A DNA stretch of 64,000 nucleotides from Echinarachnius parma (taxonomy: Eukaryota > Echinodermata > Echinoidea > Clypeasteroida > Echinarachniidae), in NCBI GenBank assembly GCA_037951105.1, contig JBAMJV010003008.1:157001-221000 (forward strand). Direction: 5' to 3'. Below are positions 18,117-62,410 of this stretch, piece after piece (positions within the stretch are counted from its first letter, which is position 1; every line of letters begins with the position of its first letter). The notes under the pieces were generated by a model. The model did no database searches and had not been told where the DNA came from. It saw only the letters and a program-made list of their open reading frames with translations. Both the position numbers and the translations under genes were made by a program.

Positions 18117-18806
18117 TGACATCATATCTTGCGCTTGTACTGTAGCACGTGTAGTCTCATACTGGAATGAAGTATGCCGCAAATGGCGTGGCGGGTTTCA
18201 TGCAGCCCTTCACACACAAACTATTGAGCCGGTTGTGACATCATTTTTTTTATGAATGCACTTGTAGCATGTGTAGCTACTAAGCTGGGACATCATGTAA
18301 CATACATGCTACAAATTATGGGTTTTATGTAATACCTACTTGAACATATTAAATACTAATTAAAGTATTTGTTACTTGGTACTCTGCAAAGACACATTCA
18401 ATTTTGATTTACATTATCTTTACATAGTGGAGCCAATGTTTACACTAACCATACATTCGTATATCTATAGCCAAATGTGACATCATTTTTGTATTAAATG
18501 CACTTTTAACACATGTATGTTGTATAGTTTATACTGGAATAACATAATGCATGCTGCAAATGACGTGTAGCATTGATTGGTTAGGCTACATGTGCGATAC
18601 CTAGTAGCTTTTCTAATTTGGTGTCTGCAAAGACACGTTCTCATTTACATAAATTATGCATTATAATGCACTTAAATGCACAAACTATCCATAGATAGAG
18701 CTTGATGTATGACATCATTTTTGTAATCTTGTAGCATGTGTACGTATAGTACATCTAGTTTATACTGGAATAACATGCCGCAAATGACGTGTAACATTGA
18801 TGGGCT
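18117..18806. repeat. Degenerate tandem repeats, irregular 120-240-bp spacing
   Basis: Four units share 'tgacatcat', 'tgtagcatgtgta', 'tactggaataacat', 'tgccgcaaatgacgtgta', and 'gcgatacctact'. Units start near 18117, 18237, 18478 and 18711. Confidence 0.7.
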
Positions 18807-19144
18807 ACATGCGATACCTACTCGGTCATGCCTGGGATTTTAAGTGATGACGGACATTTCCATAAGTCGACTGCGTGAAAAAATAAGCACATGTAATGTA
18901 ATGTATGCCTAGCCTCCTATCAAGGAATTAGGAAATTGTCTTAATTTTCTTGTGCAGATTTGCAGTCAAATCTTTACATGCGATACCTACTCGGTCATGC
19001 CTGGGATTTTAAGTGATGACGGACATTTCCATAAGTCGACTGCGTGAAAAAATAAGCACATGTAATGTAATGTATGCCTAGCCTCCTATCAAGGAATTAG
19101 GAAATTGTCTTAATTTTCTTGTGCAGATTTGCAGTCAAATCTTA
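18807..19144. repeat. Perfect 169-bp tandem duplication
   Basis: The segment starting 'acatgcgatacctactcgg' at 18807 repeats at 18976 with no difference that I can see, through 'cagtcaaatctt'. Perfect identity amid otherwise diverged repeats means a very recent duplication or an assembly artefact. Confidence 0.9.
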
Positions 19145-21479: not shown

Positions 21480-21656
21480 CCTAAATCACTCTAAAGTTTA
21501 CGGTACTTCTTTGAATGTTGTAATTGAATAGTAGAGTAAATTGTAATTGTAAATGTAGAGTGTGTTGTGTATAATCCATCAGTATCGATGCTAAATTAGT
21601 GCGGTGATTCCACCGGCCACCCCCATCCTACACACAACCACCTCCCTTAAAGGGAC

Positions 21657-22032
21657 TTAGTAACATTGTCCAAATCCTCAAAATAAAATTGTAATTCTAG
21701 CGGTTCCCTTATACCTTGTTGTATTCGTATTAACAATAAAATCATGGGACAGGTTTCGGTTTTTCGAATTTCCCTTTCGTTACAAAGATATGTATGATTG
21801 AAGTATTCAGATAAGAAAAACTCCGGGCGAGTTTTTCTTCCGTGTACAAAGTGAGTGCAGTGAGTTACTGAATATCACTTTGCATTTTCGCTCATTACTT
21901 GGCCATACAATGTCCATTTGACTTGAAATTTTCACTCAATACCCTGTGGACATATGAGATAACAACAATATACATTGCATCAACCATTTATCACTTTTTG
22001 CACATGTCAACAAAGTTACTAGATCCCTTTAA
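21657..22032 (+). mobile_element. TTAA MITE (AGGGATCTAGTAAC type), complete
   Basis: TTAA lies at both ends. The left end reads AAGGGACTTAGTAACATTG and the right CAAAGTTACTAGATCCCTT, giving TIRs of about 18 bp. Length 376 bp. It lies at the diverged start of the satellite array. Confidence 0.85.
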
Positions 22033-24214
22033 GTTCTACCCTTTGCTATTTAAGTGAATTCATCGATGTTGATTCTGCCTGTCTGATAACCCCCTTTTTT
22101 CTTCGCATTATGCACTATATATGATCATTGCCCATCTCAAATGATCCATCAGTTATGGATGCTGAATTAATGCTATAATTCTTCCACCATCCACCCCCAT
22201 CTCACATCCATCCCCCTTCCTCAACTACAACCCCACAAAACCCATCCCACCCCCTTTAATATATGATGCTGTTTTTTTATAAATAATGTACATCCACCTC
22301 CACTACATATCTGTCCCATGTTGCTCAATAAACCCCCTTAGAACTATCTCCTATAATATGGCCTTTCTTTATGATCATTCTCATTTCTCAAAAGGTCCAT
22401 CAGTTATGGATGCTAAATTAATGCTATAATTCTTCCACCATCCACCCCTATCCAACAACCTCCTTACTCAACCACAACTCTGCAAAACCCATCCCCACCC
22501 TATCATGCTGTTTTGTATAAATAATGTCCATCCACCGCCACCACATTATCTTTCCCACGTTGCTCAATAACCCCCTTTTTATCTCCTATTATATGCTCTC
22601 TATATGAGCGTTCCCACATCTCAAATGATCCATCAGTTATGGATGCTAAATTAATGCTATAATTCTTCCACCATCCACCCCCATCCCACAACCTCCTTTC
22701 TCAACCACAACTCTGCAAAACCCATCCCCACCCTATCATGCTGTTTTGTATTTAAATAATGTACATCCACCTCCACCACATTATCTGTCCCAGGTTTTTC
22801 AATAAATCCCTTTCTTTCTCCTGTATTATATGCTCACTTTATGAGCATTCCCACATCTCAAAAGGTCCATCAGTTATGGATGCTAAATTAATGCTATAAT
22901 TCTTCCACCATCCACCCCCATCCCACAACCTCCTTTCTTAACCACAAAAAACCCATCCCCACCCTATCAAGCTGTTTTGTATAAATAATGTCCATCCACC
23001 TCCACCACATTATCTTTCCCACGTTGCTCAATAACCCCCTTTTTATCTCCTATTTTATGCTCTCTATATGAGCGTTCCCACATCTCAAAAGATCCATCAG
23101 TTATGGATGCTAAATTAATGCTATAATTCTTCTACCATCCACCCCCATCCCACAACCTCCTTTCTCAACCACAACTCTGCAAACCCATCCCCACCCTAAC
23201 ATGCTGTTTTGTATAAATAATGTTCATCCACCTCCACCACATATCTGTCCCACGTTGCTCAATAAACCCCTTTCTATCTCCTAGTATATGCTTGCTGACC
23301 ATTCCCATTTCTCAAAAGGTCCATCAGTTATGGATGCTAAATTAATGTTAATGATTCCCCCACCATCCATCCCCATCCCAAACTCCTTCCTCAACTACAA
23401 CCCCCCCCCCCCCCCCCAAACCCATCCCATATATATATATGCTGTTTTGTATAAATAATGTACATCCACCTCCACTACATATCTGTCCCACGTTGTTCAA
23501 TAACCCCCCTTTTATCTCCTAATATGCTCTATTTATGATCATTCACATTTCTCAAAAGGTCCATCAGTTATGGATGCTAAATTAATGTTAATGATTCTCC
23601 CACCATCCACCCCCATCCCACAACCTCCTTTCTAAACCACAACTCTGCAAAACACATCCCCACCCTATCATGCTGTTTTGTATAAATAATGTACATCCAC
23701 CTCCACCACATTATCTCTCCCATGTTGCTCAATAACCCCCTTTTTATCTCCTATTATATGCTCTCTATATGAGCATTCCCACATCTCAAATGATCCATCA
23801 GTTATGGATGCTAAATTAATGCTATAATTCTTCCACCATCCACCCCCATCCCACAACCTCCTTTCTTAACCACAACTTTGCAAAACCCATCCCCACCCTA
23901 TCATGCTGTTTTGTATTTAAATAATGTACATCCACCTCCTCTGTCCCACGTTTTTCAATAAACCCCTTTCTTTCTCCTGTATTATATGCTCACTTTATGA
24001 GCATTCCCACATCTCAAAAGATCCATTAGTTATTGATGCTACATTAATGCTATAATTCTTCCACCATCCACCCTTATCCCACAACCTCAACCTCAACCAC
24101 AACTCTGCAAAACCCATCTCACCCTAACATGCTGTTTTGTACAAATAATTTACATCCACCTCCACCACACTATCTGTCCCATGTTGCTCAATAAACCCCC
24201 TTCTATCTCCTATA

Positions 24215-32767: not shown

Positions 32768-33022
32768 GATGTAAAATGGCCGAGTAATGAGTGAAAATGC
32801 TACTCATTGCACTGACTTTGTACACAGTTACATAACTTTCCACCGGGTAATTAAAAATATGAAAACTTCAATCGTAAATGTCTTTCTAATGAAAGGGAAA
32901 TTTGAAAAACCTAAACCTGTTCCATGCTTCTATTGGTTATACAAATACAACAAGGTATGAGAGAACCACTAGAGTTCTAAGAAAGTTGTGTGGATTCGGA
33001 CGATGTTACTAGAGCCCTTTAA
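32768..33022 (-). mobile_element. TTAA MITE (AGGGATCTAGTAAC type), truncated
   Basis: Runs in reverse: 'atggccgagtaatgagtgaa', 'cattgcactgactttgtaca', 'aacaaggtatgagagaacca', ending 'atgttactagagcccTTTAA'. The distal third is missing. Confidence 0.75.
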
Positions 33023-33229
33023 TGATCTCATTTATTAGTAGTAACTCACCGGGGCACAATGGCTGATTATAATTAATTGAACGTGGGAAAACATACACAG
33101 AAGATGGCAATAGCTTTGTAATGAGTTCAGAATTTTAATTAAGAAAAGGCAATCATGCATGTATTAGAAGGAGATTATAATATGTGCATACAAATAGACA
33201 TAACACAAAAAGGGAGATCTTAATTCCTT
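33023..33229. other. No gene recognised
   Basis: Short AT-rich spacer between two transposon remnants. Confidence 0.4.
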
Positions 33230-38290: not shown

Positions 38291-38833
38291 GCATCCTCTT
38301 AGCTGGTTAACAATAGCATGAAAAGTACACCAGTTTCATGTTTGATACTAGACGAGCCTGCGCCTGCGAGTTAATTCACAGGATATGGTTCGTGGGACCT
38401 TTTTTGCTTGAAACCGAACCCTCCGCAAAAATGAGCGCGAGAGATAAAAAAAAAAAAAAGAGAGTTGTTTTAATATTCTTTGACATGACTTGATAGACGC
38501 CTGCGTCATTTGCCGGGAGACATTAATTAAGGAGTTTACATGAAATTAAGTTTGGGAGACCTTTTTACGCCAAGAATCTGTAATAATGCTCATGTTCTTG
38601 TAATTATAAATTGGAGTACGTGCATTTTTAACAGTATGAAATGACGAAGTGATAAGAGACGCAAAACGTGTCTCCTTGTAGCTACCCACCCTCCCCTCCC
38701 CACCAAAGCAAAATCAATGGCAGACAAATATAAACAATTAATTAATTTCGCCAACAATTATATTGCATCGTACATGTAGAATCTACAGGTACATGTATGT
38801 TCTTGTCAAAAGAAGCAATAGTTTGTACTAATC
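38291..38833. other. No gene recognised
   Basis: Low-copy, with a poly-A run near 38446. Confidence 0.4.
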
Positions 38834-39100
38834 TTAAAGGGACTTAGTAACATTGTCCAAATCCTCAAAATCCAATTTGAATTCTAGCGGTTCCCTCATA
38901 CCTTGTTGTACTGGTATTAACAATAAAATCATGGGACAGGTTTCGGTTTTTCAGATTTCCCTTTCGTTACAAAGATATATTACGATTGAAGTGTTCAGAT
39001 AAGAAAATATCCGTTGGATTTTTGAAACCGTGTACAAAGTGAGTTAGTGAATATCACTTTGCATTTTTGCTCATTACTCGGCCATGCAACGTCCCTTTAA
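38834..39100 (+). mobile_element. TTAA MITE (AGGGATCTAGTAAC type), internally deleted
   Basis: TTAA at both ends. Left AAGGGACTTAGTAACATTG. The right end jumps from 'cattactcggccatgcaacg' directly to 'tccctttaa'. At 267 bp it lacks the 'acaaagttactagat' part. Confidence 0.8.
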
Positions 39101-48131: not shown

Positions 48132-48352
48132 CGCAGTGTTTTAAGTAAAAACTAATTATTTGTGAAATAACACTTATTTTTTGCCTGTAGTTCAGAACTT
48201 CCCGTCTATCAACATTGTATATGTTGAGAGGCATTGTTCAATCATTCACGTCAACAAATTTCCATTTGGTAAAAATTAAAATTGCCACAACTTTTTAACT
48301 TAAATGTGCCCTTCTATCTAGCTAGAGTGTTAACCAATCCCTGATAGGCCCT
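48132..48352. other. No gene recognised
   Basis: Short AT-rich spacer between the hAT-like element and a TTAA MITE. It starts with the right target duplication of the former. Confidence 0.4.
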
Positions 48353-48743
48353 TTAAAGGGCTCTAGTAACATTGTCCAAATCCACAAAATCTTGCTGAGA
48401 GCCCTAGTGGTTCTCTCATACCTTGTTGTATCTGTAATACCAATAGAATCATGGAACAGGTTTCAGCTTTTTGAACTTTCCTTTTGTTAAAAAAGATATT
48501 TAAGATTGAAGTATCCAGATTTGTAATTATCCATTGGAAAGTTATAACTGTACAAAGTCAGTGCAATGAGATAACAAATTATATCACTTTGCTTTTTTCA
48601 CTTATTATGTGGCCATATAATGTCCACTTAACGGGAAATATTCACACATTCATCAGTGGACATATCAATTCACTTTAAATGCACATTTTATCAACCATTC
48701 ATCGCTTTTTGCACATGTCAACAAAGTTACTAGATCCCTTTAA
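48353..48743 (+). mobile_element. TTAA MITE (AGGGATCTAGTAAC type), complete
   Basis: TTAA at both ends. Left AAGGGCTCTAGTAACATTGT, right 'aacaaagttactagatccct'. 391 bp. One of the best-preserved copies. Confidence 0.88.
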
Positions 48744-54779: not shown

Positions 54780-57060
54780 CATTGTTTGTGGTCGGTCGCA
54801 GTCAAACTTCTTTTTTTAATATAGTCCACCCTCATCCTTTAGTTCCATTAGTCTTCATTACGGCTCCCATATTTTCAATGACGTTCATTCATTCACAACA
54901 TTTTCTAAACTCACTACTTCACACACACCAAAAAAAATCATTCATACCGGATGTTTATGACTGTTCAGGTGAACCTAATGAATAAAAACTCATTAGTGTC
55001 AATTTCCCGGAAAGTAATCATCAATAATAAAAGTTCATTCATTCAAGTATTTGTCGTCATGGGTCTCTTTGTTGACATTTGATGACGTTCATTCATGGAA
55101 TTTTCTAAACTCATTATCAGCAAAAGTTCATTGATATATCGGATGTTTTGACTGCCAATACCTAACAAACAGAAATTCATCAGGGAAAATTCCTGGAAAA
55201 ATCATGATTCATGAAAAAGGTTAATTCATGTCATAGTATTGTTTTGTTTTGGCTCTTGTGTCTTTAATGACGTTTATTCATGACGAAGTTGGGACTTGCA
55301 TCATTTAGCAAAAGTTCAATTATGCTGATGAACCTCATGAATTAAAGTTTATTAGTATGATTTTCTAGAAAAATAATCAACAAAAGTTAATTCACGTCGT
55401 AGTATTCGTCGTCATAGCCCTTGTGTTTTCCATGAAGACAATTCACGATTTTGGACGTCTTGATTTGCAATTTTGCATCATCAGCGAAAGTTCATTCATA
55501 ACGATGTCTTCACTGTCAAGATAAGCCTAATGAATGAAAGTTTTAATTGTGTACATTTCTTAGAAATAATCAACAAAAGTTAATTCATGTTATAGTATTC
55601 GTCGTCATAGCCCTTGTGTTTTCCATTGAAGTTGATTTTACGATTGTGGACATCTTGATTTGCATCAGCAGAAAAAAGTTAATTCGTAACGATGTCTTGA
55701 CTGTCAAGATATGAAGCCTAATGAATGAAAGTCTATAATTGTACATTTCTTGGAAATTATTAATAAAGTTTAATTTGTGGTGTAGTATTTGTCGTCATAC
55801 ATGTATGTAGCCCTCATGTCTTCCAGGAAGTTAATTCATGATTTTAGACGTCTTGATTTGCAATTTTGAATCATCAGCGAAAGTTAATTCATAAAGATGT
55901 CTTGACTCAAGATATAAAGCCTAATGAATGAAAGTTTATTAGTGTACATTTCTGGGAAATAATCAATTTTGTCGTCATAGCCCTTGTGTTTTCCATGAAG
56001 ACAATTCACGATTTTGGATGTCTTTATTTGCATCGTCAGCAAAAGTTCATTCATAAAGATGTCTTGACTATCAAGATATTAAGCCTAATGAATGAAAGTT
56101 TATTAGTGTACAGTTCTGGGAAATTATTATTAATAAAAGTTCATTCGTGTCATGATAGTATGTTGTTGCCATGGCTGTTGTGTCTTTGATGATAGATGTT
56201 CATGACGTTGGACATCTTCATGCGCATCATTGATATCGGATTGTTTTGATCGTCGAGATGAACCTAATAAAAAAACAAAAAGTTGATTTGTTTCAAATTC
56301 TGGACAATAATCATCGACTTAAAGGGAAAGTTGAGTTTTGGTAGAGAGGGCGCTAGACTACTTAATTGGTTTGTGAGGTAATGAAAAACTGAGTGTAAAA
56401 TTTGAAAGAGCATAATATTTAAACAATAAAATCATCTTTGTTTGATCAAAATCGGTTCAGAAACGGCTGAAATATCCATAAATATAACAATTTGTAATAA
56501 ACCCGGGGCCCGGGTTTATTAGAGAATTTTGAACCAGCGGTTAAAAATTCAAAATAATGCTTCCTCTTTTCAAAAAGTTACAAAATTGGTATTTAAATAG
56601 TTGTTGGTTATTTCTCTATCTAATCACTATTTCAACAAAGCATCACATGCACAATATTTTATTCAAAATGGTTGAAACCGATGAGTGTTTAGAGAGCGCC
56701 CTCTTACGTTTTAACGGCTCCTTTTGAATGATAACATGATCTTTACTACGTCATTTGTAATTTGTGTGTTCCTTTCTAGTTATAACTATTAGTTTGTAAT
56801 GTAATGATGCAGGTTTTGGTTACTAAAATTCAGTTTCACCAAAACTGTACTCTCCTTACAAGAACTCAACTATCCCTTTAAGTTAATAGCCATGTCATCA
56901 TAGTATTTGTTATCATGGCTCACGATCATGTCTTTGATTTAGTTTGTTTATGATGTTTTCTTCACTTTTATCATCAACAGAAGTTCACACCTAATGAAAT
57001 CTTGACTGTCGTAATGAACTTCCGTAGTAAACAAAAGTTCATTAGTGTTAATCATAATAA
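54780..57060. repeat. Tandem array, ~190-bp unit, about ten copies
   Basis: Units share 'gtcgtcatagcccttgtgtt', 'ttccatgaagacaattcacg', 'atttgca…catcagcgaaagttca', 'ttcataacgatgtcttgact', 'gcctaatgaatgaaagttta' and 'tagtgtacatttctggga'. The central units (55380-56110) are the most alike. Interrupted by a TTAA element at 56319-56881. Confidence 0.87.
56319..56881. mobile_element. TTAA element (AGGGAAAGTTGAGTTTTG termini), complete
   Basis: TTAA at both ends. Left AAGGGAAAGTTGAGTTTTGG with 'agagggcgct', right 'agaactcaactatccctt'. Interior 'aatcggttcagaaacggctg'. At 563 bp it is the full-length relative of the fragments at 151, 15213, 20620 and 49158. No transposase frame. TTAA duplication is consistent with Kolobok. 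Confidence 0.85.
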
Positions 57061-57642
57061 TCCTGAGTAAAAACGTAAAGGAAATGTGTGTCTTTGGTCT
57101 TCATCAACAAAAGTTCCTCATTTGCCTCAGTCATTTGATTTTCATTGTGCAAAATTGTGACTTTCTCTTGAAGCTAAATGAAATGAAAAGCAACCGAGAA
57201 TTGAGACTCTTCTCTGCAATAAATAAATTGAACAAAAATCATAATTCTATCAGTGAAAGTCATATTGTGGTGTTTTCAAAGATTAATTGTCTATTTGTGG
57301 AGTGCAAACTGGAGGGAGACATAAATTGTATCATCGTTTTGTGTTTGTGTTTGAGAAAGAAAAAAATTGTTTTCATTCTGGCATGCATCAAAGTGGTTAG
57401 ATATAAAAACGGCAACTCAAAGTCAAATAGACAATGGTTGCATTACTCATTGCACTGTACTTATATATGGCTCTGGTTTTTTTAAAGGTGCCAAAAGGCT
57501 TAATGGCACTTTGAGGGCCTGTATTTTTAAAAACATACTGAACTGAAAACTTATTTTTGTATTTTCTTATAGCATCCACCTAGATTGATCTCCCATACCT
57601 TAACAAAAATATTTGGACTTCCCTTTATATAGGTCAGATAAC
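57061..57642. other. No supported gene
   Basis: Includes most of the 146-codon plus-strand frame at 57045-57485. It has no recognisable domain, Kozak context or splice signals, and shows no obvious codon preference. In DNA this AT-rich a frame of this length is unusual but not exceptional. Confidence 0.4.
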
Positions 57643-60600
57643 CCTAAAGGGCCAATTGTTAACGGAAATTTGTCAACCAAAAATGGGTTCAATTATGTTC
57701 AGGTATAAAAAAACACTAACAGATTTTTTTGTTTTTTATTTGTTGATAATTATGAACGAGTGTGAGTTAAACTTTCAGAAAATTAACGGCGCTTAATATG
57801 TAAAGTAATATTTTGACAGTACAATGCCATCAAAATTGGTGTTTCGGACGTTACATCCTCCGTTAACAATTTAACCCCTCATTACCCCTACCAGTATCAT
57901 AATTTATTGAAATGATATCATTATGAAAATTGAACTAACAGTTTCCTCATCATATTGCCTAAACGGGAAATGACTGATTTCTTAAGCCAGCGATTAAAAA
58001 AAAACAAAACATGAAATGCACACATGCTCTCATTTTCCGTTAACAATTTTGTAACGTCCGAAACAATATTTCTTTAGAAATAATTTTTAAAAGGGGGATA
58101 CCACAAACAATTATTTATCTCAGTTTTGAAGAGACTTGATGTACCTTCCCATCACAGAAAAAAAAAAATGCAATAACTTATTGTATTATGATTATATCTT
58201 TAAAGTTAACTTTCCGTTAACATTTGTAACATCCGAAACAAATGTAACGTCCGAAACCAAAAATGTAACTTATAAGCTCATAAGTCACAGGAAAGGGCAC
58301 ATTATATGAATCAATCATCATAATATAAAATAGTATTCATTTTGAAACAAATTTACACATGAATTGGGTAATTAATTGCCAAAACAAATGTTTGAGATCA
58401 ACCAATGTAAACAAATGTGTTTCGGACGTTACATGGGGTAATTGTTAACACAAAATTGATATTTTAGTGCATTTATTTTCAAAATGATAATATATGGTTA
58501 TTATTATTCATTTAGATCATGTAAATCAAACATAATCATCAAAATACATGATGCTTTAATAACATTTAGATGCTTAGTCTGCCCCAAATCCACATTTTCA
58601 TCAATTTTTCATCGATTTTTCTCAGCTAATTTGTAACCACTAAAGATTTACAGGACACTTGATATAGTGAATGATATGACTAATCTACTTGGAACAATAA
58701 CCTTTCTTTTGTGAAACTGAAACACTACCTGCTGCAACAACTCCTGTATTTTGTTTACCATTTACAGAATATTTTGTATGGTATTGTGAGCTCGTTTCGG
58801 ACGTTACAAAATGGTGTTAACACACATTTTGATTGCACAAAAAATTCAATTTGGAACATTTAAAAAAGTATTATCTACATTTTTCATGATCTATATGCTT
58901 CCTGCTCCAAGCAAAAGTGTTTTGAAAAATAAATTATAAGTTATTTGTCTCTGGGAAGGAACTTTTATTTATAAAATGTGAGGAATTGCTATTTTTGCCC
59001 CATAATTGTTCATGTTGTAAAGTACACACAGAACTACATGTATACTGATTTTGTTTTTTTGTATCACATCAAATGCATTATTAGGTTGATTGCCTTTATA
59101 ATGTTCTATAAGAAACAAATGTTATGTCTCTGTTTCATTATTCATTTAGTGGAAATATCATAGACATTTTCATTAACAGAGCCTTTTAGTGGTATACAAA
59201 AGTACAGTATAACTATGCTAAATTTACTCAAAGTTGCAAAACATGTTTTTTTCATATACTTAAACTTGATAAGAAAATAATCTGCGTTGATCCACATGTT
59301 TTACTGACACTAATTAAAATGTTAATCATTTGTATTAAAAAAATCCACATGTTAAAACAAAAGTTAGTTTTGAAATACTATATGGCATATGCCATGTAAA
59401 CTATAGGTACAGTACATGTACACCAAGATAATTCCTTATCTCATCTTAAGGCAATTTCCAGAACATTACTGGTTTATGAACAATTACATTTTGCGCAAGT
59501 CAGCTATGTTTGAAAAATGTAACCATATCTGCTGGAACAAATATATTTTCTTGACCATAACCTTATGTGGTACATACAAGTGTACTGTACATGTGCCATT
59601 ATAACTTGAATTTGAGGTTTTGCTAATATCATATTGATCAGTAATGCATTTATGACAGTTATTCTAATTTTCGATAATAGTTTGATGAAATTAGTTTGAG
59701 CTTCATGTTTTATCAAAATAAGAAAATGGAAAATTCAAATCATATACATGTACAATGTATGTCATTGTACAATTTACATCGGAAAGTCACATCGATCATC
59801 CTTTGACTGTATATTAATAACAGTTTCTAATTGCATGTAATATTTGTACAAAATCTTGGATTTTGTCTATCAATATGGACTTCATTCACTATCCCTTTCG
59901 TTGGGAGTTCAATTAATGCACATATTTATTGGTTTTGCTTGCCAAATCGTGCAAACAAAGCGAGTTAAGATATGTTTTGAAGTGATGTTAACACCTTGTA
60001 ACGTCCGAAACAAAATAGGGTATGTCATAACATAATGCAAGTTTACTACAATAAATTACAGATCACAATTCTCAAATTGTAGTTATTGTAGTACTAGGTA
60101 CACAGTACTTCATAATTTCACTAAAACCCTTAAAATTGTCTCTACTTTGGAGATCTGAACATATAATTATATATAAATCAAGTTTACATGTACTGTACTG
60201 TACTATAATGTCTATGGTTGATAGAAGACCCCTTTCTGTGCTATGAAGTTAATTTGACCATTTCAAAGAAGAATTTGGATAGATTTACATCTAAACATAT
60301 ATTTTCTGTATTTAAATATTCCAAAATAGCAAAGATTTAAACCACAACTTTTCATAGAAGTGTAAAAAAAGGGTAAATGTTAACAATGTGTAACGTCCGA
60401 AACACATACAAGAATCAAATTTGAATTTTGTTTGCAAGTGTCTTGCTCCAATTTTATATCATGTAAATATGTCCTATCATGTATTGTTTCCATACAATAA
60501 GTTTGAACCAACAACAGTAAAAAAAATTTGCATTACAAAAACTTCAAATTGCAAAATTCAAATTTTAAGGCTATTTTTCCCTTTAAAATGACCTAAAAAC

Positions 60601-60930
60601 TAAAATTTCAGAAACAGAAGCCCCGAAATTGGCACACATGATGTCAGAAGCCCACTTTAATTATTTGTATTATTTGTAATGCCATTTGGAATAGTAGGAT
60701 TTTAGTATGGCAATGTGAAAATATATCATATTTTTCTTTTAAATATAGGAAATCCTAAATGTCCATAGATATTTCGCAGAATTGGGGATAGATTAAGCCC
60801 AGATATTTATATTTCACGAAAATATAAGTTGTGTCAATGTTAAAAAAACATGTTTGAAGTTAGTTCACTTAATTTCAATTTTGACCATGTTGGTTGACAC
60901 ATTTGGCATCTTTAAAAAAACCAGTGCCAT
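57643..60930. repeat. AT-rich stretch with eight GTAACGTCCGAAAC motifs
   Basis: The 14-mer GTAACGTCCGAAAC, or its reverse complement, occurs at 57841, 58051, 58226 (one mismatch), 58244, 58419, 58794, 59998 and 60390. A GTTAAC hexamer lies within 3-11 bp upstream (in motif orientation) of every one except 58244, which shares the 58216 site of its neighbour. Three copies are reverse (57841, 58419, 58794), five forward. Weak inverted similarity at the two ends ('tttgtcaaccaaaaatgggt' near 57669 against 'accatgttggttgacaca' near 60884) suggests one element of about 3.2 kb. No protein frame recognised. Confidence 0.7.
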
Positions 60931-60941
60931 ATATCACGGTT

Positions 60942-61379: not shown

Positions 61380-62410
61380 ATTTTTCCTTCCGCTCCTCTT
61401 CGGCTTCCTTCGTTCATTTGATTTGAATATCTTTCTTTCTGTTCTTCTTCTTCTTCTTTCCTTTCATATTTTTGTCTGTCTTTCTAATATTTGGTTTCCT
61501 TCTTATCATATCTGGTGAGCATAATTTTTCCCCTCTGTTCCCTTTTCCTTGCATCTTCCTACATAATAATAATAATAATAATGTATTTTTAATTGCATAT
61601 CACATATGTCTCTATGCGCTGTAAGAAATCGAAATAGAAGAAGGAAAGGTTCAGCATACTATACTGCGTATTAATTACAGAATGTCAATACTTTTTTCTG
61701 TGCCTCGCTTTTCCTTCATTCATTTCAATGTCTTTCTTTCTGTTCCTCTTCTTTTCCCTTCATTCCTTCTGTCACTCCTTCCTTCCTTTCTTTCTTATCT
61801 CATGATCCCCTGTTTCCTTATTCCTTTCTTTTCCCTCACTGTCCTTCTGTGTCTCTTTGTTTTATACAGTCAAACCTGTGTATAGTGACCACCTATTAAA
61901 AAGGAAACAAGAAAATTAGCCACTGTAGACAGGTGACCTACTATAGAAGGGTTCCATAACATTGTTAATCTCTGCAGGGGATCACTTTTGTTGGCCACTT
62001 TCTAAAGACAGGTTGGCTGCTATATAGACATTAGACATGCGGCCACTAAGACAGGTTTGACTGTACTGTATTTCTTCAAAAATCCAAATGTCCTTCTTTT
62101 TCTCCTTCTTTCCAACTATTTTCATCCAATTTCTTTTCTTTCCCCCCCTCCCTGCTATTCTCCTATCGATATTTCTAGTCTCTCATTCTTTTTTCATTTA
62201 TTTTCTTTCTTTCTTTTTCTCCTTCTTTCTACTGTCCTTCCCTTTTTTTAATTTCAAAAATGTCTTTCTCATCCTTTGTTTCATCCTAGTTTCTTCCACC
62301 TTTCCAAATCGCTATCATTCTCCCCTCTCCCATTTCTCCTTCTTAATCCCTCCTTCCATCCTCTTTTACCTAACCTTTTCTTTCGCCAACTGTCTGTCTT
62401 TCGTACGTTA
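61380..62410. repeat. Pyrimidine-rich strand, about 1 kb
   Basis: The + strand is dominated by TTCC, TTTC and CTTCTT words, interrupted by (AAT)n near 61567-61582 and the MITE at 61867. The plus-strand frames full of Phe, Leu, Ser and Pro (61252-62420) are translations of this tract. Confidence 0.8.
61867..62063. mobile_element. TA-flanked MITE (CAGTCAAACCTGT termini), complete
   Basis: Left CAGTCAAACCTGTGTATAGT, right 'aagACAGGTTTGACTG', with TA on each side (61865-61866, 62064-62065). 197 bp. Interior 'ggttggctgc' and 'ggccact' repeats. TA duplication points to a Tc1/mariner-type mechanism. Confidence 0.87.

Follow-up and report, generated by a model that had tools for sequence, protein, structure and literature searches.

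An apparently young, non-autonomous TIR transposon of Echinarachnius parma with a constrained array of putative docking sites far inside its ends

In the En/Spm elements (CACTA), the accessory protein TNPA binds a short motif found in both orientations in both arms, and its sites fall within a few hundred base pairs of ends that begin with CACTA. Two further systems are described in the papers cited: in Ac/Ds of maize (hAT), subterminal AAACGG hexamers bind the transposase cooperatively (PMC3260210), and in Galileo of Drosophila (P superfamily), footprinting and EMSA place sites for the THAP domain at ~70, 561-577, and 701-718 bp from the end (PMC3688188). The experimental cases of transposase-binding sites compared here come from a few model elements. 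Here, we describe a transposon of the echinoid Echinarachnius parma in which a comparable array of short sites can be studied through the variation among its genomic copies.

The stretch of DNA analyzed, hereafter the window, comprises 64,000 nt of contig JBAMJV010003008.1. A first-pass annotation had singled out in it eight copies of the 14-mer GTAACGTCCGAAAC, one of them mismatched, five forward and three reverse, and all of these were recovered between 57841 and 60403; a ninth match in the window, at 62398, has two mismatches. The clustering is beyond chance, as had been held: shuffling the window 100 times yielded 0.18 matches on average and at most 2 (≤2 mismatches), which rules out a chance origin. 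The sites, with their positions in the window and in the consensus of the 14 copies aligned below, are as follows:

57841..57854, reverse strand: 14-mer site 1, GTTAAC 7 nt upstream in site orientation; consensus 378(-)
58051..58064, forward strand: 14-mer site 2, GTTAAC 6 nt upstream; consensus 588(+)
58226..58239, forward strand: 14-mer site 3, with one mismatch (GTAACATCCGAAAC), GTTAAC 4 nt upstream; consensus 762(+)
58244..58257, forward strand: 14-mer site 4, 18 bp after site 3 and without a GTTAAC of its own; consensus 780(+)
58419..58432, reverse strand: 14-mer site 5, GTTAAC 11 nt upstream; consensus 955(-)
58794..58807, reverse strand: 14-mer site 6, GTTAAC 8 nt upstream; consensus 1330(-)
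59998..60011, forward strand: 14-mer site 7, GTTAAC 5 nt upstream; consensus 2568(+)
60390..60403, forward strand: 14-mer site 8, GTTAAC 5 nt upstream; consensus 2960(+)
57658..57663, no strand assigned: GTTAAC without a 14-mer, within AATTGTTAACGGAAA, whose reverse complement recurs exactly at 58034-58048, next to site 2

The spacers given (7, 6, 4, 11, 8, 5, and 5 nt) were measured in the 14-copy consensus. A GTTAAC hexamer had been reported beside each site, and this stands for seven of the eight, where it lies 4-11 nt upstream in motif orientation, but not for the site at 58244, whose nearest GTTAAC is 22 nt away. The hexamer at 57658 is invariant in 14 of the 14 aligned copies. The mismatch in site 3 is a CpG transition common to 6 of the 14 copies (the window and 5 of the other 13); the consensus contains the 14-mer eight times, in every case without mismatch. 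In the consensus, the base before the 14-mer is T in 8/8 sites and the base after it is A in 7/8, and thus the extended site is close to TGTAACGTCCGAAACA. The two equal spacings of 175 bp that had been pointed out are present in the window but become 174 and 175 bp in the consensus; hence, we read no meaning into their equality. The outermost sites lie 372 bp from the left end of the element and 525 bp from the right end, and the array is lopsided, with six sites in the left arm and two in the right. When the consensus is compared with itself, only the TIRs, the sites, and one short inverted match (1036-1072) emerge, the longest repeat being 39 nt.

These sites belong to a cut-and-paste-type DNA transposon with 24-bp terminal inverted repeats (TIRs) and 4-bp AT-rich target site duplications (TSDs), which explains the striking word cluster in the window:

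57469..60928, forward strand: whole transposon, TIR to TIR, 3460 bp (from copy-alignment breaks, end reading, TIR search, and length)
57465..57468, no strand assigned: left TSD, ATAT (from end reading and unoccupied sites)
57469..57492, forward strand: left TIR, GGCTCTGGTTTTTTTAAAGGTGCC (from end reading, TIR search, and genome count)
60905..60928, reverse strand: right TIR, GGCACTGGTTTTTTTAAAGATGCC (from end reading and TIR search)
60929..60932, no strand assigned: right TSD, ATAT (from end reading)

Alignments of other genomic copies with the window break off a few bases from 57469 and 60928. A transposon of ~3.2 kb had been among the options initially offered; the transposon, with TIRs and TSDs, is borne out, but its size is 3.46 kb, and the start that had been stated, 57643, falls 174 bp short of the left end. 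The TIRs are imperfect inverted repeats that give the element the ends GG...CC (GGC), and they are present in 13 of the 14 near-full copies, the sole exception being L011, in which the left TIR is damaged. With L011 omitted, all 13 copies with both ends, the window copy included, are flanked by a 4-bp TSD identical on both sides (ATAT in seven; TTGT in two; TTAT, CTAT, TTAA, and TAAT in one each). The flanks in the window would also be compatible with ATATAT, and the length of 4 bp is set by the other copies. Uninterrupted, the element measures 3450-3505 bp (9 of 13 copies); the other four span 4111-4571 bp. Empty sites were recovered within the fetched loci in full for 2 of the 14 insertions queried (L020 and L021) and in part for L009, with no unoccupied site found there for the other 11. 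The L020 copy was inserted into a dispersed repeat that is unoccupied in L016, L011, and window 21812-22025, with a single ATAT in each, and the L021 copy into a locally repeated sequence whose closest unoccupied neighbor within L021 (97.7%) likewise has a single ATAT. These empty sites agree with the mapped ends and the 4-bp TSD.

The dispersed family at window 21643-22037, which was the target of one transposon insertion and the source of an empty site, has partial relatives at 32857-33024, 38830-39098, and 48349-48743 and shares 75-94% similarity with parts of L011, L016, and L020. Another dispersed repeat (56319-56881) is 80-97% alike in L014, L015, and L017, where too it lies near the element and not inside it. 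The window further contains a tandem array of nine copies of a 233-bp unit (22109-24213), over which the GC skew is very strong (-0.61 at 22001-24000), and a perfect (100%) 169-bp tandem duplication (18806-19143).

Across the genome (1.2 Gb in 14790 contigs), a TIR pattern allowing up to two mismatches occurs at 451 places (227 forward and 224 reverse), a number that, as a count of repeats, can be a lower bound, and at none for the reversed control. This translates into roughly 225 copies, provided that most of them retain both ends. The 14-mer, at up to one mismatch, occurs at 1997 places as against 423 for the reversed word, so that the initial claim that it is found only here is true of the window but not of the genome. 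The first 100 of these 1997 places listed fall mostly into clusters of similar spacing and orientations. We fetched all 17 contigs named among these 100 places: 13 hold a near-full element, three a part of one, and one (C282) a lone 14-mer. Thus, among the matches listed, the element is present in whole or in part in 16 of the 17 contigs, and the word is not one that is common at random positions. One of the partial elements (C657) is cut by the contig end. The other two look truncated, as the 20 kb retrieved for either one contains only a single TIR: C399 retains only the left end (L028 5268-6327; 1061 bp, 89.8% to the consensus) and perhaps represents an older subfamily of the same transposon, and C230 only the right end (1045 bp, 96.7%). 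We aligned 14 copies of the ~225, namely the window and the 13 near-full ones. Their mean pairwise difference is 2.6%, and each diverges from the consensus by 1.3-2.1%, values that point to a young family that was active in the recent evolutionary past.

Stop-to-stop frames in the 14-copy consensus reach at most 76 aa. A Pfam search of 10 of the 33 frames listed for the window copy returned no match above the cut-off and two weak ones below it (E 0.07 and 0.19), and neither Rfam (gathering scores) nor a tRNA scan yielded a hit in the window. An open frame of 155 aa (57018-57482) spans the boundary between the flank and the left end of the transposon. Judged by its reading frames, the element has no recognizable gene and is therefore taken as non-autonomous; by the same reasoning, it would have to be moved by proteins made elsewhere. 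The longer TIR-to-TIR copies were considered as autonomous elements. Four aligned copies (L009, L013, L016, and L018) contain added DNA; the inserts read (those of L009 and L018 and one of the two in L016, the first, leaving out L013 and the second in L016) look, by eye, like nested unrelated repeats, and the first L016 insert matches a dispersed repeat found elsewhere. Among the long TIR pairs, that on C1092 (6.8 kb) was read and those on C1252, C2472, C2622, C1973, and C992 were left out; the C1092 pair, which holds unrelated DNA with a 156-bp tandem array in its middle, was rejected as an autonomous element. This nested DNA spans L043 1072-4178, with ~9 units in the array. The element copies read yielded neither an autonomous partner nor a transposase or binding protein, and viral contigs contained no exact TIR.

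Fourteen copies of a young family of ~225 offer a natural test of which parts of a non-coding element are retained: apart from their CpG positions, the eight 14-mers and eight hexamers do not vary, whereas the remainder of the element drifts. In the 14 copies, none of the 123 non-CpG columns in the 14-mers and GTTAAC is variable versus 102 of 991 nearby (p = 7e-6). Counted as cells, 0 of 1706 are changed in these sites versus 211 of 13794 within 60 nt; such cell counts treat related copies as independent, and the column test lessens, though it does not remove, the effect of kinship. When the blocks were placed at random 20,000 times, the scaled count never fell below 1.5, and among 601 rigid shifts of the block set, zero variable columns occurred at shifts 0 and -1 only. 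Inside the 14-mers, 12 cells are changed, all of them CpG transitions, and the CpG cells changed number 12 of 514 in the sites versus 36 of 480 elsewhere. The case for constraint rests on setting CpG apart, a step chosen after the split had been seen; the simpler test that retained CpG, given below, was not significant (p = 0.13). The behavior of a bound site that had been attributed to the words is thus upheld outside CpG in the 14 copies, and it fits together with the transposon option. Such constraint, discerned by comparing copies, marks likely functional parts of the element but not which protein binds them.

On balance, we favor as the more probable reading that this is a young non-autonomous TIR transposon in which the 14-mers and GTTAAC are putative docking sites for the mobilizing machinery. 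The docking protein might be the transposase, through its DNA-binding domain, or another DNA-binding protein belonging to the autonomous partner. As the constraint suggests, several bound sites per arm would allow such proteins to recognize and pair both ends, and copies without intact sites would leave no progeny, so that the sites would stay intact in every lineage. Because they begin 372 and 525 bp inside the ends, their role is probably in end recognition and pairing and not in cutting, as proposed for Galileo. Counting against this reading are the depth of the array, greater than that of the Ac/Ds subterminal sites, and the uneven distribution of sites between the arms. A more specific version, to which we give little weight, is that movement depends on a long-range two-part array (GTTAAC plus GTAACGTCCGAAAC) whose binder is distinct from the transposase that cuts the ends. 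The site holds three half-sites ending in AAC, namely GTTAAC, GTAAC, and GAAAC, which, given the known preference of MYB domains, could be readable by a multi-repeat MYB/SANT-type protein.

The main rival to a mobilizing protein is a host factor. Here, the sites would bind a host transcription or chromatin factor, and the element would either profit from a place in open germ-line chromatin or recruit a host factor for replication-linked copying. This would leave an identical constraint on the sites, and the occurrence of both orientations, the mixed spacing, and the 2.6-kb spread give the array the look of an enhancer-type cluster, with sites far from the element ends. However, an enhancer would have no gene to serve within an element that is itself non-coding, and the exact word stands apart from the element in just 1 of the 17 contigs (among the matches listed), which gives no hint of a motif in wide use by the host. 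Hence, we regard a host factor as unlikely, although it is the alternative to be taken most seriously.

The low variation of the sites might instead be an artefact of the choice of copies or of the alignment, the sites being ordinary transposon filler. The alignment has 14 copies, and the 13 added to that of the window were all first reached through exact 14-mers. However, over the range C32-C713, the places listed for the TIR and those listed for the 14-mer lead to the same 16 contigs, plus the one lone 14-mer, with exact places standing first in both lists. GTTAAC, which played no part in picking copies, shows 0 changes in 666 cells by itself, and the 12 CpG-changed cells seen inside the 14-mers indicate that changed sites were not screened out. 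We therefore hold an artefact to be highly improbable.

Least credible of all is that the sites have no present function and are leftovers from an older repeat structure inside the element, as decayed arms or as a copied word: consensus sites 588 and 762 are alike over 33 nt (94%), so that some sites may stem from duplication, and in a simpler test of the eight 14-mers, with CpG included and GTTAAC excluded, the 12 changed cells were not significantly fewer than in random blocks (mean 25, p = 0.13), yet leftovers are expected to change like their surroundings, the sites outside CpG do not do so in the 14 copies, the flanks of most sites are by eye unrelated beyond GTTAAC, and the suggestion of decayed repeat arms, already disfavored by the column test, thus goes unsupported.

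The invariance of the sites outside CpG in the 14 copies points, with no need of biochemistry, to likely functional parts of a non-coding element. The 14-mer together with GTTAAC furnishes a concrete bait for finding the mobilizing protein.

As to the affinities of the element, CACTA-type and TGT-type ends do not fit its GGC. Sola1 elements have TSDs of 4 bp, and those of Academ are 3-4 bp; the TSD length here would allow Sola1. The remaining comparisons draw on the papers cited. For Academ, PMC5199201 gives a TSD of 3 bp, beside the 4 bp found here. The length found would also allow CMC/Chapaev (2-4) and Ginger (4-5; PMC4482050). Assignment to Academ, Sola1, CMC, or Ginger would turn on the transposase of an autonomous relative. 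PiggyBac (PMC5199201) and Kolobok elements other than KolobokP (PMC9587614, PMC6004289) use TTAA, which is the TSD in 1 of 13 copies here and thus fits neither. The RR...YY ends of Kolobok are shared (GG...CC here; PMC9587614). In KolobokP, solo terminal repeats are flanked by TSDs of 3-5 bp with no strong target preference, and non-coding families are 1.7-3.3 kb long; however, KolobokP has long terminal direct repeats (PMC9587614), which are absent here by self-comparison of the consensus. PIF/Harbinger and other PHIS groups have TSDs of 2-3 bp (TWA, AT, ANT, CWG, and TNA) or none, and hAT elements have TSDs of 5-8 bp (PMC4482050), neither of which agrees with the 4 bp found (e.g., CTAT and TTGT). 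As the element departs from the TTAA rule of Kolobok and piggyBac, the direct repeats of KolobokP, and the TSD lengths of PIF/Harbinger and its kin and of hAT, we file it only as a non-autonomous TIR transposon, without a superfamily.

In terms of the site array, the likeness to En/Spm lies in a short motif occurring in both orientations at both arms, and the difference in sites near ends that start with CACTA, as against deeper sites and GGC here. As in Ac/Ds, where non-autonomous copies keep the TIRs and several short repeats (PMC3260210), the present copies retain both; however, the Ac/Ds hexamers lie in the terminal 200 bp, whereas here a 14-bp word is paired with GTTAAC from 372 bp inward. 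Galileo likewise has several binding sites, some of them far from the end, but the TIRs of Galileo-G are 1.2 kb long with tandem repeats, in contrast to the 24-bp TIRs and non-repeat arms of the present element (PMC3688188). The kind of element is already known, and its interest lies in the measured constraint on an array far inside the ends.
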